A DNA stretch of 64,000 nt from the NCBI GenBank assembly GCA_003220685.1, contig QHTE01000047.1, forward strand, positions 40,264 to 104,263. Reading direction: 5' to 3'. The notes under the pieces are model-generated. The model was not told the DNA's origin and did no database searches. It saw nothing but the letters and a program-made list of their open reading frames with translations. This stretch comes from Candidatus Rokuibacteriota bacterium (GTDB lineage Bacteria > Methylomirabilota > Methylomirabilia > Rokubacteriales > CSP1-6). Position numbers and translations under genes: made by a program. Shown here in pieces: positions 41,111-59,419 of the stretch (the stretch's first letter is position 1; each line of letters begins with the position of its first letter).

Positions 41111-42831
41111 GCCGGATCGATCCGATCACCCTCGGCGTCGTGTGGGGTGCGCTCCAGTCGATCGCCGTCGAGATCGGCACGACGGTGCACCGCACCGCGT
41201 ACTCGGAACAGGCACGCGAGGGTCAGGATTTCTCGGTCGCGGTCTTCGATCCGGCCGGGCGGATGGTGGCGCAAGGCCCCTATTCGCCCGGGCACATGGG
41301 CGCGATGTCCTTCGCCGTGCGGAACGCACTCGCGGCGCACCCGGTCGAGACCTTGCGGCCCGGCGACGCCATCCTCCTGAACGACCCGCTGCTCGGCTCC
41401 GGCCATCTTCCCGATTTCTTCATCACGCAGCCGGCGTTCCACGACGGCGCCCTCGTCGGCTTTGCCGTGAACATCCTGCACCACACCGACGTCGGAGGTC
41501 AGCGGCCCGGCAGCCAGGGGGTCGAGGGCATCTTCGACTATTTCCAGGAAGGCCTGCGCATCCCACCGACGAAAGTCTGGAAGGAGTACCAGGAGCAGGA
41601 GGGCATCGTCGGCATCATCGCGGCGAACACGCGCACGCCCGACAAGGTGCTGGGCGACCTCCGGGCGCAGCGGAGCGCGCTCCGCGTGGGCGAGCTCCGT
41701 TTACAAGAGCTGGCGGCGCGGTACGGCCGCGAGACGCTCCTGGCCGGCATGGACGAGATCGTCGCGCGTACCGAAGCGAACATGCGCGCCGCCATCGCGA
41801 CGATTCCGGACGGCGTCTATCGCTTCGAGGATTTCATGGATGACTACGGCCCCGGCACCGAGCCGCTGCGCGTCGCGGTCACGGTGACCGTGGACGGCAG
41901 CTCGATGGTCATCGACTACGAGGGCTCGAGCGCGCAGACCGCGTCGGGCATGAACTCCTACATCAACTACACGCGCTCATATTCGTACGCCGCGGTGAAG
42001 TGTCTCACGGACCCCTTGGGCCCGATGAACGAGGGCGCCTTGGGCCCGATCACCGTGAAGGCGCCCGAGGGCTCGTTCCTCAACCCCCGGCCGCCGGCCG
42101 GCGGGGGACCGCGCGCGATCATCTGCTACCGCACGTTCGAGTCGGTGCTGGGCGCGCTCGCGCCGGCGCTGCCGGACCGGGTCGCGGCGGCCGCCTCGCA
42201 CATGGCGAATCCGACCTTCGGCGGCTGGGACCGCGCCCGCAAGCGGCGATTCGTCGCCTACGAGCTCGTGCTGTCCGGCACCGGCGCGCGCGCGACCCGC
42301 GACGGCTGCGAGGCGATGTCGTGGGCGTTCAACGCCGCCAACATCCCGGTGGAGGCGCAGGAGGCCAACCAGCCGATCATCGTCGAGCGTTTCGAGCTGA
42401 TCGGCGATTCCGCCGGCGCCGGAAAATTCCGGGGCGGGTGCGGCGTCCGTCGCGACCTACGCCTGCTCGGCGACGAGGGCAAGCTGACGAATCTGTCGGA
42501 GCGCCAGAAGTTCGCGCCCTACGGCCTGCGCGGCGGCCGGTCCGGAAAGCTCGGCCGCACCGTCATCAATCCCGGGCCGGGGGAACAGGTCGTCCACGGC
42601 AAGCAGTCGCGCGAGTTCGCGTACGGCGACGTCGTCTCGTTCCAGCAGTCGGGCGCCGGCGGCTATGGCGATCCGTTCGAGCGCGACCCCCGGCGCGTGC
42701 TGGACGACGTCCTCGACGACTACGTGTCGGTCGAAGCGGCGCACCGCGACTACGGCGTCGTCATCGTCGGCACCGGCGTCGATCTCACGATCGATGAGGA
42801 CGCGACCTGCCTCGAACGGAGCCGGGCATGA
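41107..42831 (+). CDS. hydantoinase B/oxoprolinase-family subunit
   Basis: 574 residues of the HyuB family and partner of the upstream subunit. Hallmarks: DPITLGVVWGALQSIAVEIGTTVHRTAYSEQAREGQDFSVAVFDPAGRMVAQGPYSPGHMGAM, NDPLLGSGHLPDFFI, and C-terminal AGAGKFRGGCGVRRDL and SGAGGYGDPFERDP. The substrate may be a cyclic imide, lactam or a ketone; the neighbouring genes for CoA thioester metabolism do not settle which. GTG start with a 4-base overlap. Confidence 0.9.
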   Translation: MSRIDPITLGVVWGALQSIAVEIGTTVHRTAYSEQAREGQDFSVAVFDPAGRMVAQGPYSPGHMGAMSFAVRNALAAHPVETLRPGDAILLNDPLLGSGHLPDFFITQPAFHDGALVGFAVNILHHTDVGGQRPGSQGVEGIFDYFQEGLRIPPTKVWKEYQEQEGIVGIIAANTRTPDKVLGDLRAQRSALRVGELRLQELAARYGRETLLAGMDEIVARTEANMRAAIATIPDGVYRFEDFMDDYGPGTEPLRVAVTVTVDGSSMVIDYEGSSAQTASGMNSYINYTRSYSYAAVKCLTDPLGPMNEGALGPITVKAPEGSFLNPRPPAGGGPRAIICYRTFESVLGALAPALPDRVAAAASHMANPTFGGWDRARKRRFVAYELVLSGTGARATRDGCEAMSWAFNAANIPVEAQEANQPIIVERFELIGDSAGAGKFRGGCGVRRDLRLLGDEGKLTNLSERQKFAPYGLRGGRSGKLGRTVINPGPGEQVVHGKQSREFAYGDVVSFQQSGAGGYGDPFERDPRRVLDDVLDDYVSVEAAHRDYGVVIVGTGVDLTIDEDATCLERSRA

Positions 42832-43988
42832 TCGCCTTGACGCCGGAGCAAGAGGAATTTCGGAGAGCTGTGGCGCGGTTCGTCGACGCCGAAGTGGTCC
42901 CGGAGGCCGAGGCGATCGACGAGCGCGCCGAATTTCCGAAGCGGCTCTTCAAGCGCATCGGCGAGCTCGGCTACCTCGGCCTCCGCTATCCCGAAGCGTA
43001 CGGCGGCGTCGACGCCGACATGGTGACGTACTGTCTCTTCGCCGAGGAGCTGGCGCGAGGCTCCCTGTCGGTGGCGGCGGCGGCGGCGATGCAGTCGTTG
43101 ATGGGGACCTACTTCGTCTACAAGTACGGATCCGAGGCGCTCCGCCGGCGCTACCTGGTGCCGGCCCTCCGCGGCGACCTGATCGCGACGTTTGCGCTGA
43201 CCGAGCCGAACGCCGGCTCAGACGTCGCGAACATCACGACGCGGGCGCGGCGGCACGGCGACCATTACGTGCTGCGCGGCACGAAGACCTGGGTGACCAG
43301 CGCCCCGGTCGCCGATCTGTTGACGGTCGCCGCCAAGACGTCGGACGAGCGAGGCATGAAGTCCATCGCGCTGTTCCTGCTCGACCGCTCGGCGATGGGC
43401 GGGATAACCCTCGGCAAGTCGATCGAGAAGATGTCGGTGCGCGCGTCGGTGACCGGCGAGATCCTCCTCGAGGACGTGGAGGTGCCGGCCGAGCACCTGC
43501 TGGGCGGCGAGACGGGCGGTGTCGAGAAGATCGGGGGCATCCTCGCGGAGATCCGGGTGATGACCGCGGCGATCTCGGTGGGGCTGGCGCGGGCGGCGTA
43601 CCAGGCCGCGCTCGGGTACGCGCGCGAGCGCAGCGCGTTCGGCAAGCCGATCGCCGAGCACCAGGCGATCGCCTTCAAGCTCGCCGACATGCTGACCTCG
43701 CTCCACGCCGCGATCCTCGTTACCTATCAGGCGGCGGCGCGGCTCGACGCCGGGCGGAGCATCGCGCGCGAGGCTGCGATGGCGAAGCTCTTCGCCTCGG
43801 AGACGGCGGTCAAGATCACCGACGAGGCGGCGCGGATCTTCGCCTCGTACGGGCTCGCGATGGAGTACCCGGTCCAGCGGTACTTCCGCGACGCGCGCTT
43901 CCTGCTGCCGGGAGGCGGCACCTCCGAGATCTTGCGCGTGATCATCGGCCGCGATCTCGACTGGGACCGGGGCCCGGCTTTCGCCTGA
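42828..43988 (+). CDS. acyl-CoA dehydrogenase homologue lacking the usual catalytic Glu
   Basis: 386 residues with the full ACAD fold: LTPEQEEFRRAVARFVDAEVVPEAEAID, GLRYPEAYGGVDADMVTYCLFAEEL, TFALTEPNAGSDVANITTRA (FAD loop), GTKTWVTSAPVADLLTVAAK, ARERSAFGKPIAEHQAIAFKLADM. In the C-terminal active-site turn the usual YEGT is PGGGT (361-365), so Gly363 stands where the catalytic Glu normally is, and the alternative position used by isovaleryl-CoA dehydrogenase is Ile. It may use another base or catalyse a different flavin reaction. ATG start overlaps hyuB (ATGA). A hairpin repeat starts directly after its stop codon. Confidence 0.86.
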   Translation: MIALTPEQEEFRRAVARFVDAEVVPEAEAIDERAEFPKRLFKRIGELGYLGLRYPEAYGGVDADMVTYCLFAEELARGSLSVAAAAAMQSLMGTYFVYKYGSEALRRRYLVPALRGDLIATFALTEPNAGSDVANITTRARRHGDHYVLRGTKTWVTSAPVADLLTVAAKTSDERGMKSIALFLLDRSAMGGITLGKSIEKMSVRASVTGEILLEDVEVPAEHLLGGETGGVEKIGGILAEIRVMTAAISVGLARAAYQAALGYARERSAFGKPIAEHQAIAFKLADMLTSLHAAILVTYQAAARLDAGRSIAREAAMAKLFASETAVKITDEAARIFASYGLAMEYPVQRYFRDARFLLPGGGTSEILRVIIGRDLDWDRGPAFA

Positions 43989-44048: not shown

Positions 44049-44504
44049 ATGCAATCACGCGGACGCTATTTCGAGGATTTCAAGGTGGGCGAGGTGCTCG
44101 TGACGGGCCGCCGGACGGTGGAGGGCGGCGACGTCTCGCGCTTCGCCGGGCTCACCGGCGACTTCAACCCGCTCCACACCGACGCCGTGTTCGCCGAGCA
44201 GACTCCGTTCGGCGCCCGCGTGGCCCACGGTATCCTGACTCTTGCGGTGTCGAACGGCCAGCAGAACCTCTCGGGCTGGTTCGAGGGCACGGCGCTGGCG
44301 CTGCTCGGGCTCGACCGGCTCCGGTTCACCTTGCCGGTCAAGTTCGGCGACACGATTCACACCGAGATGACCGTGAAGCAGGCGCGCGAGTCGTCCAAGG
44401 CCGATCGCGGCGTGGTGACCTTCGACGTGGTGGTCAAGAACCAGCGCGACGAGGTGGTCTGCACCTACGAGGAGAACGTGATGATGCGGCGGCGCGGGTC
44501 ATGA
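44049..44504 (+). CDS. MaoC-like hotdog hydratase
   Basis: 151 residues, an (R)-specific enoyl-CoA hydratase-type hotdog. YFEDFKVGEVLVTGRRTVEGGDVSRFAGLTGDFNPLHTDAVFAEQTPFGARVAHGILTLAVSNG contains the catalytic Asp and His of the GDxNPLH motif. It adds water to trans-2-enoyl-CoA. Good GGAGGAG 1-7 bases upstream of the ATG region. It overlaps the next gene by 4 bases (ATGA). A hydratase, thiolase and DUF35 set follows. Confidence 0.93.
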   Translation: MQSRGRYFEDFKVGEVLVTGRRTVEGGDVSRFAGLTGDFNPLHTDAVFAEQTPFGARVAHGILTLAVSNGQQNLSGWFEGTALALLGLDRLRFTLPVKFGDTIHTEMTVKQARESSKADRGVVTFDVVVKNQRDEVVCTYEENVMMRRRGS

Positions 44505-45670
44505 GAAAGGTTGCGCTGGTCGGGGCCGGGGTCTCGAAGTTCGGCGTGCGCAAGGCGAGCTATCGCGATCTGATCTGGGAGGCCGGCAAGGCGTGTTTCG
44601 ACGCGGTCCCGGCGGTGAAGCCCAAAGACGTCGAGGGCCTCGTGGTCGGCTCGGTGATGCCGGAGCGGACGGCGTTCCAGTCGCACATCTCGTCGATGGC
44701 GGCCGAAGCGCTCGGGATCAGGCCCAGTGCCTTGAGCGCCCGCACCGAGCACATGTGCGCGTCGGGCACGGTCGGGATCCGCTACGCCTACGCGTTCATC
44801 GCCGCCGGGCTCGCCGATCTCGTCATGGTGCTCGGCGTCGAGAAGCTCAACCAGCCGAGCGGCGACGAGGCGATCCTCAACATGGGGACCGGCGTCGATC
44901 GCGAGTGGGAAGCCTCGTTCGGGCTGACGGCGCCGCCGTGCTTCGCGCTGGCCGCGCAGCGCCACATCGCGGAGTACGGAACCACCGAGGAGCAGCTGGC
45001 GATGGTCGGCGTGAAGAACCACACGCACGCCTCGAAGAACCCCAACGCCCACTTCCAGCGCGGCGCAACGCTCGAGCAGGTCCTCGGCTCGCGCATGATC
45101 TCGTCGCCGCTCCGGCTCTTCATGTGCTCGCCGATCACCGACGGCGCCGCGGCGGTGCTCGTCGCGTCGGAGGAGCGGGCGCGGGCCCTCACCGACACGC
45201 CGGTCTGGATCCGCGGCACCGGCCAGGCTCTCGACGGCTTCCAGCTGACGTCGCTCCACGAGAACTACGCGCACTGGCCGGCGCTCTCGCGGGCGGCGCA
45301 GGCCGCCTACGGCATGGCCGGGGTGCGGCCGCAGGACGTGGACGTCGCCGAGGTCCACGACTGCTTCGCCATCGCAGAGCTGATCGCATACGAGGAGCTC
45401 GGCTTCTGCGAGAAGGGCGAGGCGGGCGCCTTCGTCGCCGCGGGGCGAAGCGACTACGGCGGCGACGTCGTCGTGAATTCGCGCGGCGGCCTGATGGGGT
45501 GCGGGCATCCGCTCGGTGCGACGGGGGTCGCGCAGGCCGCCGAGGTGTTCGCCCAGCTCCGCGGCGAGGCCGGCGCGCGCCAGGTGGACGATGCCGCCAT
45601 CGGTCTCACGCACAACAACAGCGGGATGGGCGAGCACGTGGTCATGATCTACGGCCGCGAGAGTCGATGA
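44501..45670 (+). CDS. thiolase-family (lipid-transfer/SCP-x type) enzyme
   Basis: 389 residues of the non-condensing or degradative thiolase subgroup that works with DUF35 partners. Nucleophile Cys86 in EHMCASGTVGIRYAY, EVHDCFAIAEL, and His336 in SRGGLMGCGHPLGATG are present. The family cleaves 3-ketoacyl-CoA or, in steroid side-chain degradation (Ltp2 with ChsH), performs retro-aldol cleavage. The Cys is kept here, favouring thiolytic chemistry. Part of the overlapping gene run with MaoC upstream and hydroxyacyl-CoA dehydrogenase and DUF35 downstream. Confidence 0.9.
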   Translation: MRKVALVGAGVSKFGVRKASYRDLIWEAGKACFDAVPAVKPKDVEGLVVGSVMPERTAFQSHISSMAAEALGIRPSALSARTEHMCASGTVGIRYAYAFIAAGLADLVMVLGVEKLNQPSGDEAILNMGTGVDREWEASFGLTAPPCFALAAQRHIAEYGTTEEQLAMVGVKNHTHASKNPNAHFQRGATLEQVLGSRMISSPLRLFMCSPITDGAAAVLVASEERARALTDTPVWIRGTGQALDGFQLTSLHENYAHWPALSRAAQAAYGMAGVRPQDVDVAEVHDCFAIAELIAYEELGFCEKGEAGAFVAAGRSDYGGDVVVNSRGGLMGCGHPLGATGVAQAAEVFAQLRGEAGARQVDDAAIGLTHNNSGMGEHVVMIYGRESR

Positions 45671-46620
45671 AGCACGCCGCCGTCCTGGGAGCCGGACGGA
45701 TCGGGCGCCAGATCGCGCTCGCCTTCGCCCTGGGCGGCAGTCGCGTGTCGCTGGTCGACGTGAAGGAGCGTCCGGCAGGCGGCGCCGCGGCGGTGCTCGC
45801 CGACGCGCGGCGCGAAATTCGACGGGACCTCGCGTTGATGGCCGAGGAGGGCGTGATCCAGCCCGGCGAGATCGCGCCGGCGCTCGATCGGATCGAGGAC
45901 CGGATCGGGCTCGGCGGGTTCGGCGAGTGCGGCTACGTGCAGGAGGCGCTGCCGGAGCTCCTCGAGCTCAAGCGCGAGATCCTCCACCGCGTGTCCACCG
46001 GCGTCTCGCCGGAGGCGATCATCGCGTCGACCAGCTCGACGATCTCGCCCAAGCACCTGGCGGACGCGGTCCGCGGCGACGAGCGCTTCCTGGTCGTCCA
46101 CTGGCTCAACCCGGCCCACATCATCCCGCTCGTCGAGGTCGTGCCTGGACGGACGACCGCAAGCGCGATCGTCGAGCGGACCATCGCCTTCCTCGAGAAG
46201 CTCGGCAAGGTGCCGGTGCGGTGCGCCGACTCGCCCGGGTTCATCGGCCCGCGGATGCAGGCCCTGTTGATGAACGAGGCCGTGCGTCTGGTCGAGGAAG
46301 GCGTGGCGACGCCGGAAGACGTCGATCGGGCCTTCAAGGCCGGTATGGGATTCCGTTACGCGACCGTGGGCATCTTCGAGTTCATCGACTGGGGCGGCGT
46401 CGACATCCTGCACCGCGCGAGCGGGTTTCTGGCCAGGGCGCTCGGCGACGAGCGCTTCCGTCCGGCCCGGCTGGTCGAGGAGAAGATCGCGCGTAACGAG
46501 CTCGGCGCCAAGACCGGGCGCGGCTTCTTCGATTACGCCGGCGAGCGCCGCGAGGCGTTCGAGACGGCCAAGGTGCGCGCCCTGCTCCGGCAGCTCCGGC
46601 GCCAGCGGGAGTCGGCGTGA
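45667..46620 (+). CDS. 3-hydroxyacyl-CoA dehydrogenase
   Basis: 317 residues. NAD fold at the N-terminus ([28 protein letters not shown]), [13 protein letters not shown], catalytic region [20 protein letters not shown] (HWLNP in place of the more common HFFNP), then [56 protein letters not shown]. The FRYATVG...DWGG pattern is that of the short 3-hydroxyacyl-CoA and carnitine/gulonate-dehydrogenase-like branch. The ATG start overlaps the thiolase stop codon. Confidence 0.88.
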
Positions 46621-47045
46621 GCTACTTCAGGGCGACCGACCCGTTTCCGCTGGAGTCGGCGGAGCACACGAAGCTCCACGAGTTCTACGCGCGGCTCGCT
46701 GCCGGCCGGCTGGCGACGACGCGCTGCGCGGCCTGCAAGCGGCTCGCGTGGCCGCCGCGCGCCTTCTGCGGCGAGTGCGCGTCGGACCGCTTCGACTGGG
46801 TCGACCTGTCGGGCGAGGGGACGATCCACGCGTTCACGATTCAGGAGGTCGGGCTGCCCAGCGGCTTCGCCGGGCCGCGCGTCTTCGCGATCGTGAAGAT
46901 CGACGGCCTGCGTGTGTTCTCGATCCTGGTCGACGCCGAGCCGGCCAAGGTGGCGATCGGCCAGGCCGTGCGGCTGTCGCCTCTCAGGGTCGCCGACGAT
47001 CCCAGCGGGAACGCGCGGTGGCTGCCGGCGTTCCGTCCGGCATGA
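46617..47045 (+). CDS. DUF35 (zinc-ribbon OB-fold) thiolase partner
   Basis: 142 residues. Rubredoxin-like zinc ribbon: Cys37/Cys40 ([16 protein letters not shown]) and Cys51/Cys54 (CGECAS), followed by the OB fold ([47 protein letters not shown]). Such proteins bind CoA-thioesters and form complexes with thiolases or ketosynthases. The GTG start overlaps the dehydrogenase stop. It most likely pairs with the thiolase at 44501. Confidence 0.92.
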
Positions 47046-47425
47046 AGGTCCTGATCGCGAAGCCGGGGCTCGACGGCCACGACCGCGGCGCCAAGGTGGT
47101 GGCGCACGCGCTGCGCGACGCCGGGTTCGAGGTGGTCTACTCCGGGCTCAAGCGCACGCCTGACGAGATCGTGCGCGAGGCGATCCAGGAGGACGTCGAC
47201 GTCGTGGGCCTCTCGGTGCTCTCGGGCGCCCACATGCTCCTGGCGCGCCGCGTGGTCGAGGCGCTGCGAGCCCAGGACGCGGCCGACATCGCGGTGGTCG
47301 TCGGCGGTATCATTCCTCCGCGTGACGTCGAGGCGCTGAAGCAGCTGGGTGTCCGTCACGTGTTCCCGATGGGGACGCCGCTCCCCGAGATCGTGAAGGC
47401 GCTCAAGAAGGAGCCGCTGCGTTGA
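47042..47425 (+). CDS. cobalamin-binding (small) subunit of an acyl-CoA mutase
   Basis: 127 residues, the free-standing B12 domain. [33 protein letters not shown] carries the DxHxxG motif (Asp11, His13, Gly16) whose His replaces dimethylbenzimidazole as the cobalt ligand; [13 protein letters not shown] and [15 protein letters not shown] are the rest of the Rossmann core. It partners with the large subunit at 48287, separated by one hydrolase gene. ATG start overlaps DUF35 (ATGA). Confidence 0.95.
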
Positions 47426-48270
47426 TTCCGCCCTGGGTCGACCGCCGAGAGTATCCGTTCGAGCCGCACCGGCTCGACGTCGAGGGTGGTCGTCTGAGCT
47501 ACGTCGACGAGGGCGGGGGCGCGCCAATTGTCATGGTGCACGGCACCCCCACCTGGTCGTTCCTGTATCGTCACCTGATCCGCGCGCTGAGCCCGCGCTA
47601 CCGGTGCGTCGCGCCGGACCACCTCGGCTCCGGATTGAGCGACCGTCCTGCGGACTGGTCGTACCGGCCCGAGGACCAGGCGCGCAATCTCGCGCATTTC
47701 ATCGAGGCGCTCAATCTCAGGGCCATCACGCTCGCCGTCCACGACTACGGCGGACCGATCGGCCTGGCTTACGCGCTCGACCACCCGGAGAATGTGCGCG
47801 GCCTGGTGCTCTTCAACACGTGGATGTGGTCGTTCGCCGGCGACCGGCACGTCGAATGGTTCGTCCGTCTCCTCGACGGGCGGCTCGGTCGCTACCTCTA
47901 CGAGCGCCGTGGATTCTCGGTGCGCGTGATGCTGCGTCACGCAGTCGCCGATCGCCGGCGCTACACGCGTGAGGTCGAGCGTCACTATCTGCAGGCGCTC
48001 GACGGCCACGCCACCTGGATCTCCGCGCGGGAGCTCAGAGGCTCGAGCGCCTGGTTCGACGGCCTCTGGGCGCGGCGCGAGCGGATCGCCCGGATCCCGG
48101 CGATCCTGATCTGGGGGATGAAGGACCCGGCGTTCGCGCGCTACCTGCCCCGCTGGCGCCAGGTCTTCGAGCAGGCCGAGGTCGTCCAGCTCGCCGACTG
48201 CGGCCACGCGCCGCCCGAGGAACGGGCGCCCGAGAGCCTGCCGTTCCTCACTCGCTTTCTCGAGCGGTAA
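47422..48270 (+). CDS. haloalkane-dehalogenase-like alpha/beta hydrolase
   Basis: 282 residues. [35 protein letters not shown], nucleophile Asp108 in [31 protein letters not shown] and His262 in DCGHAPPEE match haloalkane dehalogenases. The halide-binding Trp that normally follows the Asp (HDWG) is Tyr109 here, so dehalogenation is uncertain; an Asp nucleophile is also used by epoxide hydrolases. TTG start overlapping the preceding gene. Its place between the two mutase subunits suggests it acts on the same substrate. Confidence 0.85.
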
Positions 48271-48286
48271 GCCGCAGGAGGACACG

Positions 48287-49882
48287 ATGAAAGAGATCAA
48301 GGCGCACGCCGGCTTCCCGATCGCGCCGGTTTACGGGCCCGAGGACGTCGCTCGTGTCGACTTCGAGCGCGACATCGGACGGCCGGGCGAGTACCCGTAC
48401 ACGCGCGGCATCCACCCGCACATGTACCGCGAGCGGCTCTGGACGATGCGCCAGTACGTGGGCTTCGGGACGCCGGCGGAGACGAACGCGCGCTTCAAGT
48501 ACCTGATGACCCACGGCCAGGACGCTCTCAATGTCGCCTTCGACCTGCCGACGCAGCTCGGGCTCGACTCCGACGATCCCAAGGCCGAGGGCGAGGTGGG
48601 CCGGGTCGGCATGGCCGTCGACACGCTCGCCGACATGGAAGAGGCGTTCGCCGGCATCCCGCTCGATCGCGTGAGCGTTTCGCTCACGATCAACGGCATG
48701 GCCGCGCCGATCACCGCGATGTACTACGCCGTCGCCGAGAAGCAGGGGGCGGCGGCCGCGCGCGTGGTCACCACGCCGCAGAACGACATCCTGAAGGAAT
48801 TCATCGCGCGGGGCACGTGGATCTATCCGGTCGACCCGTCGCTCCGGCTCGTCGCGGACCTCATCGAGTTCTCGGCTCGCCACTACCCGCGCTCGAATCC
48901 CGTGTCGGTGTGCGGCTACCACATCCGCGAGGCCGGGTGCACGACGGCGCAGGAGATGGCGTACGGCCTGGCGATCGCCGCGGCGTACGTCGAGCTGATG
49001 CTCGCCCGCGGCATGGCGGTGGACGAGTTCGCGCCGCGGATCTCCTTCAACTTCACCGCATGGGGCAAGATCTTCGAGGAGGTCGCGAAGTTCCGCGCCG
49101 GCCGGCGCCTCTACGCGCGGATGCTCCGCGAGCGCTTCGGCGCGACGAACCCGAAATCGTGGATGTTCCGCACCCTGATCGGGGGTGGGGGCTCGGCGTT
49201 CGCGGTGCAGGAGCCCGAGAACAACATCGTGCGCGGCGCGTACATCGCGCTCGCGGCATCGCTCGCGGGCGCCCAGACCATGGCCCTGCCGACCTACGAC
49301 GAGGCGTACACGATCCCGTCGCCCAAGGCGCAGCTGATCGCGCTCAGGACCATGCAGATCTGCGCCGAGGAGTCGGGCGCCGCCGACACGGTCGATCCGC
49401 TCGCCGGCTCGTACTACGTCGAGGCGCTCACCGGCGCGATGGAGCAGCGTATCCAGGAGGAGCTGGCGAGCGTCGAGCGCATGGGCGGCATCGTCGAGGC
49501 CGTTCGCAGCGGCGCGATCCAGGCCGAGGTGGCCCGCCAGGCGTACCTCTACGAGCAGAAGATCGTCTCGGGCGAGATCCCGCGGGTCGCGGTCAACTGT
49601 CACGTCGGCGACGTCCCCGCCGAGGCCGATCGCGACGTGGAGCTCTACGCGTTCGATCCCAGCGCGCACGCGGCCCAGCTGGCTAAGCTCGAGCGCACGC
49701 GCGCCCAGCGCGACGACGGCGCAGCCCGGGCGGCGCTGCGCCGGGTGGCCGAGGCGGCCCGCGGGCGAGAGAATCTCATGTACCCGATCATGGAAGCGGT
49801 GAAGGCGTACGCGACGCTCGGCGAGATCGCCCAGGCGATGCGCGACGTCTTCGGCGAGCACAAGGAAGCCGTGAAGTTCTGA
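48287..49882 (+). CDS. B12-dependent acyl-CoA mutase large subunit, divergent active-site loops
   Basis: 531 residues of the methylmalonyl-CoA mutase family N-terminal barrel; the B12 domain is a separate gene. YPYTRGIHPHMYRERLWTMRQYVGFG starts the barrel. Gapless alignment from memory with the Propionibacterium enzyme places Tyr57, Ala84, Gln165, Arg175 and His212 at Y89, A116, Q197, R207 and H244, so the carboxylate-binding Arg and general acid His are kept. However THSQT (H328, Q330) is TLIGG (296-300) and the SLHTN loop is TMALPT (331-336), both invariant-looking in methylmalonyl-, isobutyryl- and hydroxyisobutyryl-CoA mutases. The substrate is therefore probably different. No MeaB/ArgK chaperone gene is in the window. 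Confidence 0.92.
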   Translation: MKEIKAHAGFPIAPVYGPEDVARVDFERDIGRPGEYPYTRGIHPHMYRERLWTMRQYVGFGTPAETNARFKYLMTHGQDALNVAFDLPTQLGLDSDDPKAEGEVGRVGMAVDTLADMEEAFAGIPLDRVSVSLTINGMAAPITAMYYAVAEKQGAAAARVVTTPQNDILKEFIARGTWIYPVDPSLRLVADLIEFSARHYPRSNPVSVCGYHIREAGCTTAQEMAYGLAIAAAYVELMLARGMAVDEFAPRISFNFTAWGKIFEEVAKFRAGRRLYARMLRERFGATNPKSWMFRTLIGGGGSAFAVQEPENNIVRGAYIALAASLAGAQTMALPTYDEAYTIPSPKAQLIALRTMQICAEESGAADTVDPLAGSYYVEALTGAMEQRIQEELASVERMGGIVEAVRSGAIQAEVARQAYLYEQKIVSGEIPRVAVNCHVGDVPAEADRDVELYAFDPSAHAAQLAKLERTRAQRDDGAARAALRRVAEAARGRENLMYPIMEAVKAYATLGEIAQAMRDVFGEHKEAVKF

Positions 49883-49884
49883 CG

Positions 49885-52179
49885 ATGGCCGAGCCGTTCG
49901 ACGTCGTCGGCAAGTCGACCCCGAAGCGGGACGGCCCGGACAAGGTCACGGGCCGCACGCGCTACCTCCACGACCTGGAGCTGCCGCGGCTCCTGCACGG
50001 CAAGATCCTGCGAACGCGGCTGCCGCACGCACGAATCGTCCGCATCGATACGAGCCGGGCTCGCGCGCTGCCGGGCGTGGTTGCGGTGCTGACCGGCGAG
50101 GACGTCGAGCAGCGACCGTTCGGCTTCGCCAAGGACCAGGTCGCGCTCAAGCGCGGCAAGGTGCGCTGCATCCGGGACGAGGTCGCGGCGGTGGCGGCCG
50201 AGACGGCCGAGATCGCCGAGGCGGCGCTCGAGCTCATCGACGTCGACTACGCCCCGCTGCCGGCGGTCTTCGATCCGCTGGCGGCGCTCGAGCCGGGCGC
50301 GCCGCTCGTGCACGAGGACCTGACGACGAACGCGCATCAGCTCCGATTCCGGTTCGCCCACGGCGACGTCGACCGGGCGTTCGACGCCGCGGCGGCGGCG
50401 GTCGAGGACACCTACCGGCTGAGCTTCGTCACGCCGGCCTGTCTCGGCACGATGGTCGCGATCGCCGACTGGGAGCTGGCGGGCACTCTCACGATGTGGT
50501 CGACGACCCAGGTGCCGTTCCTCTACCAGCGCGATCTCGGCGAGGCGCTCGGAATCGGCGGTGAGCGCGTGCGCGTGCTGCAGCCCCCGGTCGGGGGCAA
50601 TTTCGGCCGCGGCCTCGACCTCTACCCGATCGACGTGATCGCCGCGATGCTCGCCCGCGCGGCGCGGCGCCCGGTGAAGATCGCGTTCGACCGCCTCGAG
50701 GAGTTCGTCGCGTGCCCCACCCGCGAGCCGTGCGCGATCCGCCTGCGTACGGCGGCCGACCGGGACGGACGGCTCCTGGCGCGCGACGCGCACGTGACGA
50801 TCGACAGCGGCGCCTATACCTCCTGGGGCTCGACGACGCCCTACGTGATGCTCTCGACGGTCGCCGGGCTCTACCGGGTGCCCAACGTCCGGTTCGACAC
50901 GACCATCGTCTACACGAACAACCCCTACTCGGGCTCGATGCGCGGCTACGGCAACCCCGAGTCCACGTTCGCGGTCGAGGCGCAGATGGACGATCTGGCC
51001 GACCGGCTCGGCATCGACCGGCTCGAGCTCAGACGGCTGAACGCGTCGAAGCCCGGCGACGTCAGCCCGCAGGGGTTCGTGCTCACGTCGTTCGCCATGC
51101 GCGAGTGCCTCGACGCCGCGGCGGAGGAGATCGCGAAGGACCCGCCGCCGCCGGTGCCCGGCTGCAAGCGCGGCGTCGGCTACGCCGGCATGTTCCACGT
51201 CGGCGGCGGCGCGCGCATCTACCGCTCGGACGGCTGCGGCGCGATCGTGAAGCTCGACGACTTCGGCAAGGTCACGCTCATCACCGGCGCGAGCGAGATC
51301 GGCCAGGGCTCGGAGACAGTGCTGGCCATGATCGTCGCCGAGACCCTCGGCGTGCCGCTGGAGCGGGTCGACGTCGTCAACTCGGACACGAGCGTCAGAC
51401 CCTGGGACGTCGGGACCCACGCGAGCCGGACGACATTCGTGGCCGGCAACGCCGCGCGCCTGGCGGCCGAGAAGGTGAAGACGCAGCTCTGCGAGATGGC
51501 CGCCGCGCAGTTCGGCGAGCCGGCCGGGGCACTCGGCGTGAAGGGCGGATGGGTGTTCGTCACGCGGGATCCGTCGCGGCGCCTGCAGTACGAGGCCGTC
51601 GCGCGGGCCGGGCACTTCCGGGGCGGCGGGCGCGTGCTGGTGGCCGAAGCGTTCTATGATCCGCCGACCACGATGCTCGACCGCAACTTCCAGGGTAACG
51701 TGTCGGCTGCCTACACCTCGGCGTTTCAGGCGGCGCTGGTCGACGTCGATCCCGACACCGGCAAGGTGGCCGTGCGGAAAATCGTGTCGGCGCACGACGT
51801 CGGGCGGGCGATCAATCCGGCCGCCGCCGAGGGCCAGGTGCACGGCGGCATCCACATGGGGCTCGGCTACGCGCTCTCCGAGAAGCTCGTGGTCGAGCAG
51901 GGGCAGGTGCTGAGCCAGACGTTTATGGACTATGCGGTGCTGAAGGCCGACGACATGCCGGAGATCGTCGTGCGGCTGATCGAGTCCGTCGACGCCGAGG
52001 GGCCTTTCGGGGCCAAGGGCCTGGGCGAGTCCGGCGTGATTCCCGTCGCCGCTGCCGTCCGCAACGCGATCAAGGACGCGATCGGGGCGGGGTTCGCCGA
52101 GCTGCCGATCACCCCTGAGCGCGTGCTCGTGTCCATTCAGCGGGCGGCCACACGCCATCCGCAGCAGGAGTCGATATGA
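49885..52179 (+). CDS. xanthine dehydrogenase-family Mo-cofactor subunit, 4-hydroxybenzoyl-CoA reductase-like
   Basis: 764 residues. Pattern resembles HcrA: KSTPKRDGPDKVTGRTRYLHDLELPRLLHGKILRTRLPHARIVRID, PPVGGNFGRGLDLYPIDVIAAM, SMRGYGNPESTFAVEAQMDDLA, GASEIGQGSETVLAMIVAETLGV, and AEGPFGAKGLGESGVIPVAAAV with the catalytic Glu. HcrA removes the para-hydroxyl of 4-hydroxybenzoyl-CoA; relatives hydroxylate other rings or CoA thioesters. The 2Fe-2S and FAD subunits are absent from this neighbourhood. It starts 2 bases after the mutase stop and overlaps the CoA-transferase gene (ATGA), so it is embedded in the same operon. Confidence 0.88.
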   Translation: MAEPFDVVGKSTPKRDGPDKVTGRTRYLHDLELPRLLHGKILRTRLPHARIVRIDTSRARALPGVVAVLTGEDVEQRPFGFAKDQVALKRGKVRCIRDEVAAVAAETAEIAEAALELIDVDYAPLPAVFDPLAALEPGAPLVHEDLTTNAHQLRFRFAHGDVDRAFDAAAAAVEDTYRLSFVTPACLGTMVAIADWELAGTLTMWSTTQVPFLYQRDLGEALGIGGERVRVLQPPVGGNFGRGLDLYPIDVIAAMLARAARRPVKIAFDRLEEFVACPTREPCAIRLRTAADRDGRLLARDAHVTIDSGAYTSWGSTTPYVMLSTVAGLYRVPNVRFDTTIVYTNNPYSGSMRGYGNPESTFAVEAQMDDLADRLGIDRLELRRLNASKPGDVSPQGFVLTSFAMRECLDAAAEEIAKDPPPPVPGCKRGVGYAGMFHVGGGARIYRSDGCGAIVKLDDFGKVTLITGASEIGQGSETVLAMIVAETLGVPLERVDVVNSDTSVRPWDVGTHASRTTFVAGNAARLAAEKVKTQLCEMAAAQFGEPAGALGVKGGWVFVTRDPSRRLQYEAVARAGHFRGGGRVLVAEAFYDPPTTMLDRNFQGNVSAAYTSAFQAALVDVDPDTGKVAVRKIVSAHDVGRAINPAAAEGQVHGGIHMGLGYALSEKLVVEQGQVLSQTFMDYAVLKADDMPEIVVRLIESVDAEGPFGAKGLGESGVIPVAAAVRNAIKDAIGAGFAELPITPERVLVSIQRAATRHPQQESI

Positions 52180-53369
52180 AGCTCTTCGAAGGCGTTCGCG
52201 TGCTGGACCTCTCACGGATGCTGGCCGGGCCGTACGGCTCGATGCTGCTCGCCGACATGGGCGCCGAGGTGATCAAGGTCGAGGATCCGGACGGCGGCGA
52301 TCCGATGCGGATGATGGGGCCGCCGTTTCTGCCCGACGGCGAGTCGGCGTACTTCCTCGCGATCAACCGCAACAAGAAGTCGCTGGCGCTCGACCTGGCG
52401 CGCGACCGGGGGCGCGAGGTCTTCTACGACCTCGTCCGGCAATCGGACGTCGTCTGGGAGAACTTCCGGCCGGCCATCATGGAGCGGCTCGGGCTGGCGT
52501 ACTCGAAGCTCTGGTCGCTCAACCAGCGGATCATCGTCTGCTCCGTCTCGGCCTATGGCCAGGACGGACCGTACCGCGACTGGCCGGCCTTCGACCTGGC
52601 GCTCCAAGCGATGGGCGGCGCGATGTCCGTCACCGGCGAGCCCGGCGGCCGGCCCGCCCGAATGGGTCTGCCGATGGCCGATCTCGCGGGCGCGCTCTTC
52701 GGCGCGTTCTCCATCTCCGGCGCCCTGTTCCGACGGGAACGGACGGGCGAGGGCGCCCACATCGACCTCTCGCTGCTCGACTGTCAGGTCTCGCTCCTCA
52801 CGTACATCGCGCAGTACTTCTGGACGAACGGACGCGTGCCGACACCGCTCGGCTCCGGCCACGCCTCGGTCGTGCCCTACTCGGCCCTCCAGACGCGTGA
52901 CGGCCACCTGATCGTCGCGATCTTCGCCGAGAAATTCTGGCCGCTCTTCTGTCGCGCGGTCGATCACCCGGAGTGGGAGCGCGATCTGCGATTCGCGACC
53001 AATCGCGACCGGGTCGTCCATCGCGACATCCTGATGCCGCTCGTCGAAGCCGCGTTTCGTACCCGGACGACTCGTGAATGGCTCGACCGACTGCAGGGCG
53101 CCAACGTGCCGGCAACCCCGATCCACACCGTGGACCGTGTGCTGTCCGACCCTCAAGTGCTCCAGCGCGCGATGGTCGTGGAGATGAACCACCCGCGCCA
53201 CGGCAAGACGCAAACCCTCGGCACTCCGATCAAGATCGACGGCGCGATGGGCCTGGACGTGACGCCGCCGCCGCGGCTGGGCGAGCACACCAACGAGATC
53301 CTGGCCCGCGTGCTCAAGTACTCCAACGTGAAGATCGCCGAGCTCCACGCGACCGGGGCCATCGCGTGA
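52176..53369 (+). CDS. class III CoA-transferase (CaiB/BaiF family)
   Basis: 397 residues. MKLFEGVRVLDLSRMLAGPYGSMLLADMGAEVIKVEDPDGGDPMR is the typical start; the catalytic Asp169 in GLPMADLAGALFGA aligns exactly with formyl-CoA transferase Asp169. It moves CoA from a donor thioester to an acid with an aspartyl-CoA intermediate. Donor and acceptor are unknown; nearby substrates include the imported acid or products of the mutase pathway. ATG start overlapping the previous gene (ATGA). Confidence 0.93.
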   Translation: MKLFEGVRVLDLSRMLAGPYGSMLLADMGAEVIKVEDPDGGDPMRMMGPPFLPDGESAYFLAINRNKKSLALDLARDRGREVFYDLVRQSDVVWENFRPAIMERLGLAYSKLWSLNQRIIVCSVSAYGQDGPYRDWPAFDLALQAMGGAMSVTGEPGGRPARMGLPMADLAGALFGAFSISGALFRRERTGEGAHIDLSLLDCQVSLLTYIAQYFWTNGRVPTPLGSGHASVVPYSALQTRDGHLIVAIFAEKFWPLFCRAVDHPEWERDLRFATNRDRVVHRDILMPLVEAAFRTRTTREWLDRLQGANVPATPIHTVDRVLSDPQVLQRAMVVEMNHPRHGKTQTLGTPIKIDGAMGLDVTPPPRLGEHTNEILARVLKYSNVKIAELHATGAIA

Positions 53370-54475
53370 ACGTTGCGGTCCTCGGCGCGGGCCATGGAGG
53401 CTTCGCGACGGCGGCCGACCTGGCACTCGCCGGCCACTCGGTCCGCCTGTGGGGCCGGTCCGCGCCGGCGCTCGGGCCGCTGACGCGCGACCCCACGATC
53501 GCCCTCACGGCCGAGGGGCGGGCAGGGGCGGCGCGGCTGGCGCGGGCGACGACCGATCTCGGTGAGGCCCTCGCGGGCGCCGAGATCGTGATCGCGCCGA
53601 TCCCCGCGACCGGCCACGACGAGCTCGCCAAGAGCCTGGCGCCGCACGTGAACGATCGCCAGACTATCCTCCTCACACCCGGGACGCTCGGCAGCTATGC
53701 CATCGCGCGCGCGCTCGCCCGCGCCGGCGCGCGGCTTCCGTATGCGCTCGCCGAGACCGGCACCTTGCCGTACCTGGCGCGGAAGACGGGTCCGGCGGCG
53801 GTGTCGGCGCCCGTGCGCGCGGCGAACATTCCGCTCGGCGTCTTTCCGGCGTCGCGCACCAAGCAGACCGTCGCGCGGCTGGCCGACCTCTTTCCGGCCG
53901 TCCGGCCGTGCGTCGACGCGCTCGACGCGGCGCTGACGAACGCGGGGCCGGTGATCCATCCGCCGCTCGTGCTCCTGAACGCGGGCGCGGTCGACGGCGG
54001 CCGCTTCGACGTCCACGCCGCGGGCACGACACCGAGCGTCAGGCGTTTGATCGACGTGGTCGACGCCGAGCGCGTCGCGACGCGCCGGGGGTGGGGATAT
54101 CCGGCGCCGCACTACGAGCTGTCGACGTATTACGACGAGACGCGCGCCACCGAGGGCCTCTACGGCGCCGGAGCGAAAGCCAAGCTCGTCGCGAGCAGTC
54201 TGTGGAGCGAGATCCTGACCCTGGAGCATCGCTACGTCACCGAAGACGTCGAGTTCGGCCTGGCGCTCTTCGAGTCGGCCGGCCGCGCGGCCGGCGTCGA
54301 CACGCCGGGCGTGTCCGGACTTCTGCTCACGTTTCAATCGCTCCTCGGCCGCGAGCTGTCCGGACGGGGGCGGGCACTCGAGCACCTCGGGCTCGGCGAC
54401 TTCAGCCGGCGCGAGATCCGCGGATTCTTCGATCAAGGCTGGGAGTCGCCGATCTGGGCGAAGGTGATCCGTTGA
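53366..54475 (+). CDS. opine/octopine-type NAD(P)-dependent dehydrogenase
   Basis: 369 residues of the NAD/NADP octopine/nopaline dehydrogenase family. NAD fold NVAVLGAGHGGFATAADLALAGHSVRLWGR; catalytic-domain segment LDAALTNAGPVIHPPLVLLNAGAV with the conserved His; GWGYPAPHYELSTYYDETRATEGLYGAGAK. Opine dehydrogenases join an amino acid with an oxoacid or reverse this; some relatives make metallophores. Its position in a CoA-thioester cluster is unusual. The start is GTG, overlapping by 4 bases. Confidence 0.86.
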   Translation: MNVAVLGAGHGGFATAADLALAGHSVRLWGRSAPALGPLTRDPTIALTAEGRAGAARLARATTDLGEALAGAEIVIAPIPATGHDELAKSLAPHVNDRQTILLTPGTLGSYAIARALARAGARLPYALAETGTLPYLARKTGPAAVSAPVRAANIPLGVFPASRTKQTVARLADLFPAVRPCVDALDAALTNAGPVIHPPLVLLNAGAVDGGRFDVHAAGTTPSVRRLIDVVDAERVATRRGWGYPAPHYELSTYYDETRATEGLYGAGAKAKLVASSLWSEILTLEHRYVTEDVEFGLALFESAGRAAGVDTPGVSGLLLTFQSLLGRELSGRGRALEHLGLGDFSRREIRGFFDQGWESPIWAKVIR

Positions 54476-54945
54476 GCGCGCCGCCCGCGCTCGATGCCGA
54501 CGGGCGAGGCGGCCTCACGCTCGGCGGCGCGCGCTATCTCTTGATCCGGCCCGAGACCCTGATCGGGCTCCAGAAGGCGGTCGAGGCAGCGCTCGGCGAG
54601 CGCGCGGCGGCGTGCATCGCGGCCGGGGGCCGCGCCGGCGGCGCGAAGGCGACGGCGTCGCTCGACGGCACGGCGGAAGAGCGCGTCGGCCGGCTGCTCC
54701 GGATCGGCGGCGAGATCGGCTGGGGCGAGTTCGCGCTCGAGCGTCTGACCGCGACCGAGCTGGCGGTCCGCGTCCGCCGCTCGGCCGTGGCCGAGGCATA
54801 CGGGCCGTCGACAGCCCCCGTTTGTCACCTGATCCGCGGCGTTCTCGAATCGCTCGCCGCGGCGGTCTTCGGCCGGCCGTCGATCGTCGTCGAGACCGCG
54901 TGCCTCGCGATGGGGGCTCCCGCCTGTCGCTTCGTGGCTTCATGA
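54472..54945 (+). CDS. stand-alone V4R (4-vinyl reductase) domain protein
   Basis: 157 residues. The V4R domain is recognised by RIGGEIGWGEFALERL, SAVAEAYGPSTAPVCHLIRGVLESLAAAVFGRPSIVVETACLAMGAPACRF with Cys118, Cys144 and Cys152. In other proteins this fold binds small aromatic or heterocyclic ligands (XylR/DmpR-type activator sensor domains, BchJ). Here it has no DNA-binding or output domain. TTG start overlapping the opine dehydrogenase gene and ATGA overlap with livH. It may be a carrier or sensor for the transporter's substrate. Confidence 0.83.
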   Translation: MSAPPALDADGRGGLTLGGARYLLIRPETLIGLQKAVEAALGERAAACIAAGGRAGGAKATASLDGTAEERVGRLLRIGGEIGWGEFALERLTATELAVRVRRSAVAEAYGPSTAPVCHLIRGVLESLAAAVFGRPSIVVETACLAMGAPACRFVAS

Positions 54946-55820
54946 GCGGGGCCGCCCTCGTCCACGTCGTCATCAGCGGCCTCGCCACCGGGTCGATCTA
55001 CGCGCTGATGGCGCTGAGCCTCGTGATCGTCTACAACGCTACGCGCACGCTCAACTTCGCGCAGGGCGAGATGCTGATGGTCTCGACGTTCGTGGGCTGG
55101 ACCGCGCTGCAGGTGCTCCGGGCGCCCCTGGTCGTCGCGCTGCTCGTCGCCGTCGTCGCCGCTGCACTGCTCGGCTTCCTCCTCGAGCGGCTGGTCATCC
55201 GCCACGCGATCTCGGCGACCCACTTCGACGTGCTGATCATCACGCTCGGCCTGTCGCTGATGCTGCGCTCCGCCGCCGGCGTCGCCTGGACCCACGACGA
55301 GTTCCCGTTCCCCTCGTTCTTCGGGAACCGGCCGCTCGTGGTGGGCCCGGTCCGCGTGGCGCCGGTGTCGCTCGGTATCATCGGCGCCTCGCTCGCCCTC
55401 ATGCTGGCGCTCGGCGCGCTGTTTCGCTGGACGCGCCTGGGCCGGGCGATGCGCGCGGTTGCGCAGAACCAGCGGGCGGCGCGCCTCATGGGCATCAGCG
55501 TCGAGCGCGTCTACTCCTCGTCGTGGGTCATCGCCTCGGTCGTCGGCGCGGTCGCGGGTGTCCTGATCGCGCCGGTCATCTTCCTCTCGTCGAAGATGGG
55601 GCTGGTCGCCATCAACGGATTCACCGCCGCCGTCCTCGGCGGCTTCGGCTCGATGCCGGGGGCGGTCGTCGGCGGCATGCTGCTGGGCGTGCTCGAGAAC
55701 CTGGCGCCCCTCTACCTGCCCGCGTCGATCAAGCACTCCGTGCCTTTCCTGATCATGATCACGATCCTGATCGTGCGTCCGGGCGGCGTGCTCGGGCGGG
55801 TCGCGCGACGGAAGGTCTGA
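54942..55820 (+). CDS. livH: branched-chain amino acid-type ABC permease (LivH)
   Basis: 292 residues, about eight membrane helices. Hallmarks: GLATGSIYALMALSLVIVYNATRTLNFAQGEMLMVSTFVGW, GRAMRAVAQNQRAARLMGISVERVYSSSWVIASVVGAVAGVLIAP, FTAAVLGGFGSMPGAVVGGMLLGVLENLAP. One of two permease subunits of the Liv/Urt family, which imports amino acids, urea, or aromatic acids. ATG overlaps the V4R stop (ATGA) and its own TGA overlaps the next ATG by one base. Confidence 0.94.
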   Translation: MSGAALVHVVISGLATGSIYALMALSLVIVYNATRTLNFAQGEMLMVSTFVGWTALQVLRAPLVVALLVAVVAAALLGFLLERLVIRHAISATHFDVLIITLGLSLMLRSAAGVAWTHDEFPFPSFFGNRPLVVGPVRVAPVSLGIIGASLALMLALGALFRWTRLGRAMRAVAQNQRAARLMGISVERVYSSSWVIASVVGAVAGVLIAPVIFLSSKMGLVAINGFTAAVLGGFGSMPGAVVGGMLLGVLENLAPLYLPASIKHSVPFLIMITILIVRPGGVLGRVARRKV

Positions 55821-57907: not shown

Positions 57908-57911
57908 GACG

Positions 57912-58672
57912 GTGCTCGGCGTCGAGGATCTCTCGATCAGCTTCGGCGGCCTCGCCGCGCTGAGCGGGCTCGGCTTCGAGGTGCGGGATCGCGAGATCTT
58001 CGCGCTGATCGGCCCCAACGGGGCGGGCAAGTCGACCGTGTTCAACGTGATCACGGGTCTCTACCGTCCCTCGCGCGGGCGGGTCACCCTCGAGGGCGGC
58101 GATCTGCTCGCGCTGGCGCCCCACCAGATCGCCCGGCGCGGCGTCGCGCGCACGTTCCAGAACACCGAGGTGTTCCGTCACCTCACCGCCCTCGACAACG
58201 TCCTGATCGGCCGCCACACCCACCTGCGCGCGGGCGTGATTCGCTCCGCCCTGTGGCTGCCCGGCGTGGGGCGCGAGGAGGCGCGGGCCCGCGAGTCGGC
58301 GCACGCGCTGCTGGCGCGGCTCGGGCTCGAGGACGTCGCCGGCGTCGAGGCCGGCGGCCTTCCCCTCGGCGCCCAGAAGCGGCTCGAGATCGCGCGGGCG
58401 CTCGCCTCCGAGCCGCGGCTGCTCCTGCTCGACGAGCCGGCGGGCGGGCTCAATCCTACCGAGACGCAGACCTTGATGGCAGTGATCCGACGGCTACGGG
58501 ACGAGAGCGGGCTGACGATCGTCGTGGTCGAGCACGACATGGAGCTCGTCATGGGCATCTCGGACCGCGTCGCCGTGCTCGATCACGGGCGCAAGATCGC
58601 CGAGGGCCGGCCCGGCGAGATCGCGACCGACGCCGCCGCCGTCGAGGCCTATCTGGGCAGCGAGGACGACGC

Positions 58673-58676
<4 letters not shown>
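57912..58676 (+). CDS. livG: branched-chain amino acid-type ABC ATPase (LivG)
   Basis: 254 residues, cytoplasmic ATPase. Walker A GPNGAGKST, LARRGVARTFQNTEVFRHLTALDNVLIGRH (Q-loop and LivG-specific sequence), signature-like LPLGAQKRLEIARAL, Walker B LLLLDEPAGGLN and VVEHDMELVMGISDRVAVLDHGRKIAEG are present. GTG start 4 bases after the fused permease/receptor gene. Confidence 0.94.

Positions 58677-59419
<743 letters not shown>

Follow-up and report, generated by a model that had tools for sequence, protein, structure and literature searches.

A B12-dependent mutase with rebuilt active-site loops in a Rokubacteria operon, probably an arylsuccinyl-CoA mutase of the IaaGH type

What does an acyl-CoA mutase act on when it has kept the catalytic core of methylmalonyl-CoA mutase (MCM), while two of its active-site loops have been replaced? 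This question is raised by a locus of an uncultured Candidatus Rokuibacteriota bacterium, of which 64,000 nucleotides were analysed as a whole (the window; positions 40,264 to 104,263 of contig QHTE01000047.1, assembly GCA_003220685.1, with window positions used below). The mutase is encoded by two genes, and it is very probable that their products form an adenosylcobalamin-dependent enzyme of the IaaGH type, an arylsuccinyl-CoA mutase that would interconvert (2-aminophenyl)succinyl-CoA and (2-aminobenzyl)malonyl-CoA within an operon for the catabolism of indoleacetate (auxin). The two genes, and the stretch that holds both replaced loops, are:

47042..47425, plus strand: B12-binding small subunit, IaaH-like (TIGR00640, 165 bits; DxHxxG motif)
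48287..49882, plus strand: acyl-CoA mutase large subunit, IaaG-like (Y57/R175/H212 core, GGGG loop 299-302, TMALPTYDEA loop 331-340)
49181..49305, plus strand: DNA matched by the double-loop pattern described below (no match in 100 shuffled versions of the window)

The open reading frame at 48287-49882 runs from ATG to stop (531 amino acids), and the best NCBIfam match of its product is TIGR00641 (592 bits), a general model named for methylmalonyl-CoA mutase. The B12-binding subunit is likewise complete, with DGHDRG, SVL and VVGG present. Residues of the large subunit were numbered via a MAFFT alignment to the MCM of P. shermanii (1REQ), which bore out all five residue pairs that a preliminary description of the locus had given from a gapless alignment (Y89 = Y57, A116 = A84, Q197 = Q165, R207 = R175 and H244 = H212, with the MCM residue first), as well as its observation that the THSQT and SLHTN loops are replaced, here by TLIGGGG and TMALPT. 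In this alignment THSQT (327-331) corresponds to T296, L297, I298, G299 and G300, so that H328 has become L297 and Q330 has become G299, and SLHTN (362-366) corresponds to T331, M332, A333, L334 and P335, with P335 at the position of N366; E370 is retained as E339. In MCM, we take R207 and Y89 to hold the carboxylate and Q197 and H244 the thioester, with Q330, N366 and E370 near the adenosine or adenosyl ribose.

The combination of residues fits none of the familiar classes. The Tyr/Arg/His/Gln core is that of MCM (1req, 2xij), whereas both MCM loops are absent, Y75H, S114N, S241C and F287N (1REQ numbering) are found, and identity to MCM is 39%. The presence of R175 and Y57 also departs from 2-hydroxyisobutyryl-CoA mutase (HCM) and isobutyryl-CoA mutase (ICM), in which Arg207 is replaced by Gln and Tyr89 is changed (for HCM as seen in the present alignment); HCM has I, D and Q at the positions of Y57, A84 and R175, and keeps HCQT and SLHTN. 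The preliminary description had held that both loops are kept in MCM, ICM and HCM, which is true for MCM and HCM, and it had missed that ethylmalonyl-CoA mutase (ECM, meaA) lacks both: in the three plasmid records aligned (3/3), meaA reads YGVQVNSLGL and AVQLPAWNEA, without THSQT and SLHTN and with Q330 kept. For the ICM type, the alignment covered an ICM-like paralogue in the same genome (L051, G000 C120:113097-114638, ~23 kb downstream on the window's contig; Phe at 89, Gln at 207), which retains THTQT and SLHTN.

Of the 99 genomes searched (the window's own included, and general mutases counted too), 97 have a mutase match, and the first search gave 30 loci, i.e. the window itself and 29 orthologues at 81-95% identity. 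All 29 orthologues carry IGGGG and ALPT, so that the loop change is not due to chance or error. Within the window's family, 42 of 57 genomes (own included) list a mutase of at least 74% identity and 15 do not, by a count made by eye in which several genomes are incomplete. The two loops were then written as a DNA pattern (GGGG, 30 residues, ALxx[YF]DEA), which matches the window once and was searched against GTDB genome contigs; the 119 motif loci on which all counts out of 119 are based are among the matches listed, of which there are at least 119. A mutase frame is present in 119/119 of the loci listed (split in L140 and L145). According to their titles, these loci belong to Bacteroidetes, Ignavibacteriales, Chlorobiota, Planctomycetota, Acidobacteria, Anaerolineae, Polyangiaceae, Desulfobacteraceae, Syntrophaceae and alpha- and betaproteobacteria, and, among the archaea, to Methanomassiliicoccales and a Ferroglobus sp. 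The locus titled Candidatus Rokuibacteriota AR28 (L152) has a mutase that is 95% identical to the window's. Three versions of the loops occur: MIAGGGGGGL with TMALCS, GLFGGGGSGL with TTALCS (in this sample mostly in sulfate reducers and syntrophs), and the window's own with ALPT. A search of plasmids gave no likely member of the clade, since all 428 matching records are below 60% identity (best 48.6% among the matches listed, 60 of 428).

Residues were counted in up to 130 frames of the clade, some genomes being present twice (from two collections) and hence giving near-duplicates. R207, Q197 and H244 are kept in 130/130 and Y89 in 128/128. Q330 and N366 are replaced in all 130, while E370 stays; the glycine at 330 belonged to the search pattern of the 119 loci, but the change at 366 did not. 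At the latter position 28 frames have P, as in the window clade, and 102 have C. Further residues that played no part in the selection are also common to the clade, namely H for Y75 (126/126), N for S114 (128/128), C for S241 (130/130) and N for F287 (130/130). The loops are therefore a mark common to an enzyme family and not a one-off invention.

A tree of 86 mutases, including 48 of the 119 motif loci, was built after removal of the two loops and of three signature columns. Even so, the 56 members with GGGG form one clade (ultrafast bootstrap 100, SH-aLRT 99), with MCM, HCM and meaA outside it, and within this clade the 10 rows of the window branch (100/100) stand as the sister group of the remaining 46 rows (99/97). 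The three meaA proteins form a separate clade of their own (100/100), with which the window mutase does not group. The view of the preliminary description that the protein is neither MCM nor HCM thus stands on motifs and tree alike, and methylmalonyl-, ethylmalonyl- and hydroxyisobutyryl-CoA mutase were all rejected on these grounds; isobutyryl-CoA mutase was rejected on residues 89 and 207 only, the ICM-type Phe/Gln pair being absent.

Sequence alone places the mutase in a family, and it is the operon that suggests a substrate. The neighbouring genes on the plus strand follow each other in the order given here, with the B12-binding subunit standing between the DUF35 protein and the alpha/beta hydrolase, and the mutase between the latter and the molybdenum (Mo-)hydroxylase:

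38978..41110, plus strand: hydantoinase/oxoprolinase A (HyuA), candidate IaaC/E lactam hydrolase (Pfam PF01968, PF05378, PF19278; the true start may be later)
41107..42831, plus strand: hydantoinase B (HyuB; Pfam PF02538, 549 bits; start approximate, taken from the onset of the domain match)
42828..43988, plus strand: acyl-CoA dehydrogenase, IaaF-like candidate decarboxylating benzylmalonyl-CoA dehydrogenase (FLLPGGGTSEI, replacing YEG; motif rule of PMC8360864)
44049..44504, plus strand: MaoC-like enoyl-CoA hydratase (best match TIGR02278, the C-terminal part of PaaZ, 97 bits, below cut-off)
44501..45670, plus strand: thiolase of the lipid-transfer/BbsB type (PRK06064, 419.1 bits against a cut-off of 420; BbsB, 206 bits, below cut-off)
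45667..46620, plus strand: 3-hydroxyacyl-CoA dehydrogenase (HADH; Pfam PF02737/PF00725)
46617..47045, plus strand: DUF35/OB-fold protein, BbsA-like thiolase partner (BbsA, 36.5 bits, below cut-off)
47422..48270, plus strand: alpha/beta hydrolase, encoded between B12-binding subunit and mutase (matched in 5/23 related loci; probably not core)
49885..52179, plus strand: Mo-hydroxylase large subunit of the xanthine dehydrogenase/4-hydroxybenzoyl-CoA reductase family, candidate for indole-ring oxidation (TIGR03194, 615 bits, below cut-off)
52176..53369, plus strand: family III CoA-transferase, candidate IaaL, i.e. phenylsuccinyl-CoA transferase (PF02515, 431 bits; NCBIfam matches to succinate-glutarate and mesaconate CoA-transferase, below cut-off)
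53366..54475, plus strand: octopine/opine-dehydrogenase-like NAD(P) enzyme (PF02317; present in 20/23 related loci)
54481..54945, plus strand: V4R-domain protein, candidate ligand-binding or regulatory protein (PF02830)
54942..59419, plus strand: branched-chain-type ABC transporter genes, i.e. two permeases, a binding protein and two ATPases (PF02653 for 55823-56713; the others by eye or by position of the reading frame, borders approximate)
59425..60714, plus strand: phenylacetate-CoA-ligase-like AMP-binding enzyme, candidate IaaB (PF14535 and PF00501)

The iaa operon of Aromatoleum aromaticum encodes a CoA-transferase (IaaL), a B12-dependent mutase (IaaGH), to which the interconversion of (2-aminophenyl)succinyl-CoA and (2-aminobenzyl)malonyl-CoA is assigned, and a decarboxylating benzylmalonyl-CoA dehydrogenase (IaaF), the subclass of which is marked by GGG in place of YEG (PMC8360864). 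Such operons have been reported in denitrifiers, sulfate reducers and a few archaea, with strain NaphS2 and F. placidus among the named bearers of an IaaF orthologue (PMC8360864). PMC8453981 and PMC5214803 assign the ATP-dependent lactam hydrolase IaaCE to the HyuAB family, PMC11659651 places IaaL among the family III/Frc CoA-transferases, and PMC9613470 gives 2-aminobenzoyl-CoA as the end product of the pathway. The window operon combines a gene pair for mutase and B12-binding subunit with an IaaF-type dehydrogenase, a HyuAB-type lactam hydrolase, a family III CoA-transferase and a Mo-hydroxylase (large subunit only), which is the likeness on which the comparison with IaaGH is built.

The product of 42828 reads FLLPGGGTSEI, whereas YEG stands in two further acyl-CoA dehydrogenases of the window, and GGG was found in 53 of the 54 dehydrogenase frames near the 119 motif mutases. 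The lone exception (L136) has YGG and resembles an ordinary YEG dehydrogenase of the window (at 61810) more closely than it does IaaF. The printed primers for iaaF of A. aromaticum translate to MDFDLTD and IAKEVSS (the ends of the protein), and a dehydrogenase adjoining a motif mutase in locus L116 contains MNFDLTDEQ and IAKEVSS; an exact search for the printed primer stretch gave no match in 399 genomes from the order of L116 (0/399). In strain NaphS2 (L160) the gene run is ETF alpha, GGG dehydrogenase, GntR, B12 subunit and mutase, the dehydrogenase being a candidate for the NaphS2 IaaF orthologue of PMC8360864. The NaphS2 mutase lies inside the window's clade (100/99, loops removed), which is thereby shared with a bearer of iaaF that is named in print. 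The Ferroglobus sp. locus (L153, from the genus of F. placidus) reads HyuB, V4R, GGG dehydrogenase, B12 subunit and mutase. In a dehydrogenase tree made with a quick method, the GGG proteins are not one labelled group, in part as L141 (GGG) is labelled with the others, and long branches are joined, for which reasons the tree lends weak support only.

Conservation of the neighbourhood points the same way. In 23 loci with the same gene order (some cut by contig ends), CoA-transferase was found in 23, Mo-hydroxylase, B12 subunit and DUF35 in 22 each, HyuB and thiolase in 21, opine dehydrogenase in 20, acyl-CoA dehydrogenase in 19, HyuA and HADH in 17, V4R in 15 and MaoC in 10. HyuA/B or a GGG dehydrogenase occurs in all 23 of these loci (stretches of 3.7 to 20 kb) and in 80 of the 119 motif loci (retrieved stretches of at most 8 kb; HyuA/B alone in 58), compared to none of 28 control mutase loci. 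Of these controls, 26 are made up of 16 non-motif mutase loci of relatives and 10 plasmid mutase loci (3.5 to 18.6 kb), and two are further plasmid loci, L202 and L215 (6.3 and 19.6 kb), L215 being a near copy of L203. Genes for the B12 subunit adjoin 95/119 motif mutases, and MeaB chaperone genes 8/119.

Following these results, the likely substrate pair is (2-aminophenyl)succinyl-CoA and (2-aminobenzyl)malonyl-CoA, because the operon is of the iaa type and the clade is one of mutases that adjoin GGG-motif IaaF genes. We propose the following route. Indoleacetate would be taken up and activated with CoA, its indole ring would be oxidised to the lactam by the Mo-hydroxylase, and the lactam would be opened by HyuAB at the expense of ATP. 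After CoA transfer by the product of 52176, the mutase (48287 with 47042) would convert (2-aminophenyl)succinyl-CoA to (2-aminobenzyl)malonyl-CoA, a direction that we infer, upon which the GGG-type acyl-CoA dehydrogenase (42828) would carry out the oxidative decarboxylation. In the last three steps, MaoC would add water, HADH would oxidise the product, and the thiolase (44501 with 46617) would cleave it to yield 2-aminobenzoyl-CoA and acetyl-CoA. The best reading of the sequences is thus that the window mutase would be a deep-branching member of the already known iaa mutase type. The preliminary description had proposed a new branched dicarboxyl-CoA substrate: a different branched dicarboxyl-CoA ester is indeed indicated by the retained Arg/Tyr and the rebuilt pocket, but it is probably not a new one.

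Several points weigh against this assignment. Both markers, HyuA/B and a GGG dehydrogenase, are absent from the retrieved stretch in 39 of the 119 motif loci, although four of these belong to the window's own clade, where longer stretches do show the markers, and others are short or carry genes for a CoA-transferase or a Mo-hydroxylase. The FAD and 2Fe-2S partner genes of the Mo-hydroxylase occur in 1/23 same-order loci, against 22/23 for the large subunit, and are missing from the window operon as well. The proposed tie to IaaGH runs by analogy through IaaF and operon content and not through the IaaG sequence of A. aromaticum, and the clade into which the tree places the mutase (an outcome that the preliminary description had set against its own proposal) is characterised through operon and neighbouring enzymes only. 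Unlike what was reported for F. placidus (PMC8360864), the Ferroglobus sp. locus has no ETF gene within 7.6 kb. The opine-dehydrogenase-like gene is not explained by the iaa pathway. Moreover, the window mutase is ~50-60% identical to the other sampled motif mutases, with ALPT instead of ALC, and since the window clade is a sister branch of these, its exact substrate could differ. Given the 39 loci without markers, the indirect tie to IaaG, the missing Mo partners and a clade characterised through its neighbourhood, the substrate is one that we infer.

The alternative that survives best keeps the chemistry (a substituted succinyl-CoA and a substituted malonyl-CoA are interconverted by migration of the carbonyl-CoA group, and oxidative decarboxylation of the IaaF type follows) and changes the substituent, for example to that of another lactam-derived aryl compound or a medium-chain alkylsuccinate. 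It would accommodate the window clade's own version of the loops (P instead of C at the position of N366) and the extra opine-dehydrogenase-like and V4R genes, and IaaF does weakly accept butyl-, methylbutyl- and hexylmalonyl-CoA (PMC8360864). It is nevertheless unlikely, as HyuAB, Mo-hydroxylase and the thiolase/DUF35 pair, taken together, suit indoleacetate, and other motif loci again contain HyuAB, Mo-hydroxylase and GGG dehydrogenase.

That the protein is an ethylmalonyl-CoA (or methylmalonyl-CoA) mutase with changed loops is very improbable. ECM does resemble the window mutase in lacking THSQT and SLHTN, in having Pro at the position of N366 and Val at 139, and in keeping Y89 and R207, but it keeps Q330, has no GGGG, carries a three-residue insertion before the second loop, is 34-36% identical (three meaA proteins) and falls in its separate clade. 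Its B12 domain is part of the same chain. In addition, no crotonyl-CoA carboxylase/reductase is found among the annotated genes of the operon, and the genome has a separate MCM-like mutase with intact loops (L052, C67:6927-8450). Less credible still is a mutase fold that no longer performs adenosyl-radical chemistry: the residues that contact the adenosyl ribose in MCM, Q330 and N366, are indeed replaced throughout the clade, but E370, Y89, R207, H244 and the B12 subunit are conserved, the latter lying near most motif mutases (MeaB near few), and ECM, an active mutase, also lacks N366. Two other routes were rejected: interconversion of methylsuccinyl-/glutaryl- or 2-methylglutaryl-/adipyl-CoA (suggested by matches to glutaryl-CoA dehydrogenase and succinate-glutarate CoA-transferase), because the dehydrogenase carries GGG and not the YEG of glutaryl-CoA dehydrogenase, and a nicotinate-type N-heterocycle route, because HyuAB, Mo-hydroxylase and mutase are jointly accounted for by the iaa pathway.

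Some observations stand beside these arguments. Among the 119 motif loci, 35 have the FAD partner gene of the Mo-hydroxylase near the mutase and 33 the 2Fe-2S partner gene; in the window's genome there are 13 matches to Fer2_2 and 10 to FAD_binding_5, all outside the window. A Burkholderiaceae locus (L122) likewise has an opine-dehydrogenase-like gene (46% identity), next to genes for mutase, Mo-hydroxylase and CoA-transferase. A stand-alone V4R protein, 36% identical, occurs in the Ferroglobus sp. locus (L153:469-963); the V4R protein is perhaps a sensor of aromatic ligands. RidA-type genes (Endoribonuclease L-PSP family) are present in 7/119 motif loci (e.g. L076:455-859) and would be in keeping with an imine or enamine intermediate. 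In the window's family, three genomes (G016, G022, G036) have 14 mutase matches each, versus 3 in the window's genome. Relatives also contain other mutases in which Arg207 is kept and the loops read TQTGG/ALSC (L037-L040, L053), AGGGGSD/TVTP (L041), VVCGG/FTC (L042, L043 and L203, the last on a Paraburkholderia plasmid) or GTAAH/SLHTA (L046, L049). Neither HyuA/B nor a GGG dehydrogenase lies near these groups, which represent a wider radiation of mutases.

How the proposed arylsuccinyl-CoA mutase would accommodate its substrate can be considered with the help of a predicted structure. The AlphaFold2 model of the 48287-49882 product has the mutase fold (mean pLDDT 82, pTM 0.86), and the closest PDB structure is 4r3u, a 2-hydroxyisobutyryl-CoA mutase (TMq 0.94), the large subunit of which (HcmA) is also separate and 44-45% identical; the window protein matches 11 distinct PDB sequences, all of them from MCM, HCM or fused isobutyryl-CoA mutase. 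The two replaced loops come after strands 295-299 and 331-335 of the model. Confidence is low there (block means of 61 for 301-310 and 60 for 331-340, with 339-343 below 50), so that the model does not settle the shape of the loops. By analogy with MCM, R175 and Y57 would hold the free carboxylate and H212 and Q165 the thioester. The glycine loop (299-302) and the ALP loop (333-335) each sit where one of two successive barrel strands ends. They may create space for the aryl group and alter the shape of the adenosyl site, the glycine tetrad at the barrel mouth leaving space for a phenyl ring.

Tentatively, and with rather more doubt than confidence, this can be extended to the family as a whole. 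Across many bacterial phyla and two archaeal groups, Gln330 and Asn366 have given way to a glycine tetrad and an Ala-Leu-Cys/Pro turn, with Glu370 and the Tyr/Arg/His core kept; the adenosyl radical might then be held and steered in a rebuilt, aryl-accepting site, unlike in MCM and HCM, and the Rokubacteria branch, with its ALPT and its own additions to the operon, may have moved to a related but different aromatic substrate.

For the organism itself, the pathway may feed an oxygen-using route for its aromatic CoA product. Oxygen-dependent use is possible because BoxB (benzoyl-CoA epoxidase) is present on the window's contig (842 bits, above cut-off) and PF06050 (class I benzoyl-CoA reductase subunits) has no match in the genome, which is 88% complete, class II not having been searched for. 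No paper was found that pairs 'Rokubacteria' with 'auxin degradation' (other spellings of Rokubacteria were not searched). Removal of auxin by root bacteria, via other loci, alters root growth according to PMC9613470. With the present assignment, a puzzling mutase becomes a testable one, and an iaa-type operon is placed in the uncultured lineage of the Rokubacteria. The signature of GGGG and ALxx[YF]DEA, together with H, N, C and N at MCM positions 75, 114, 241 and 287, might serve to separate arylsuccinyl-CoA from methylmalonyl-CoA mutases. The part of the mutase that deserves testing is the conserved loss of the equivalents of Q330 and N366 while E370 is kept.

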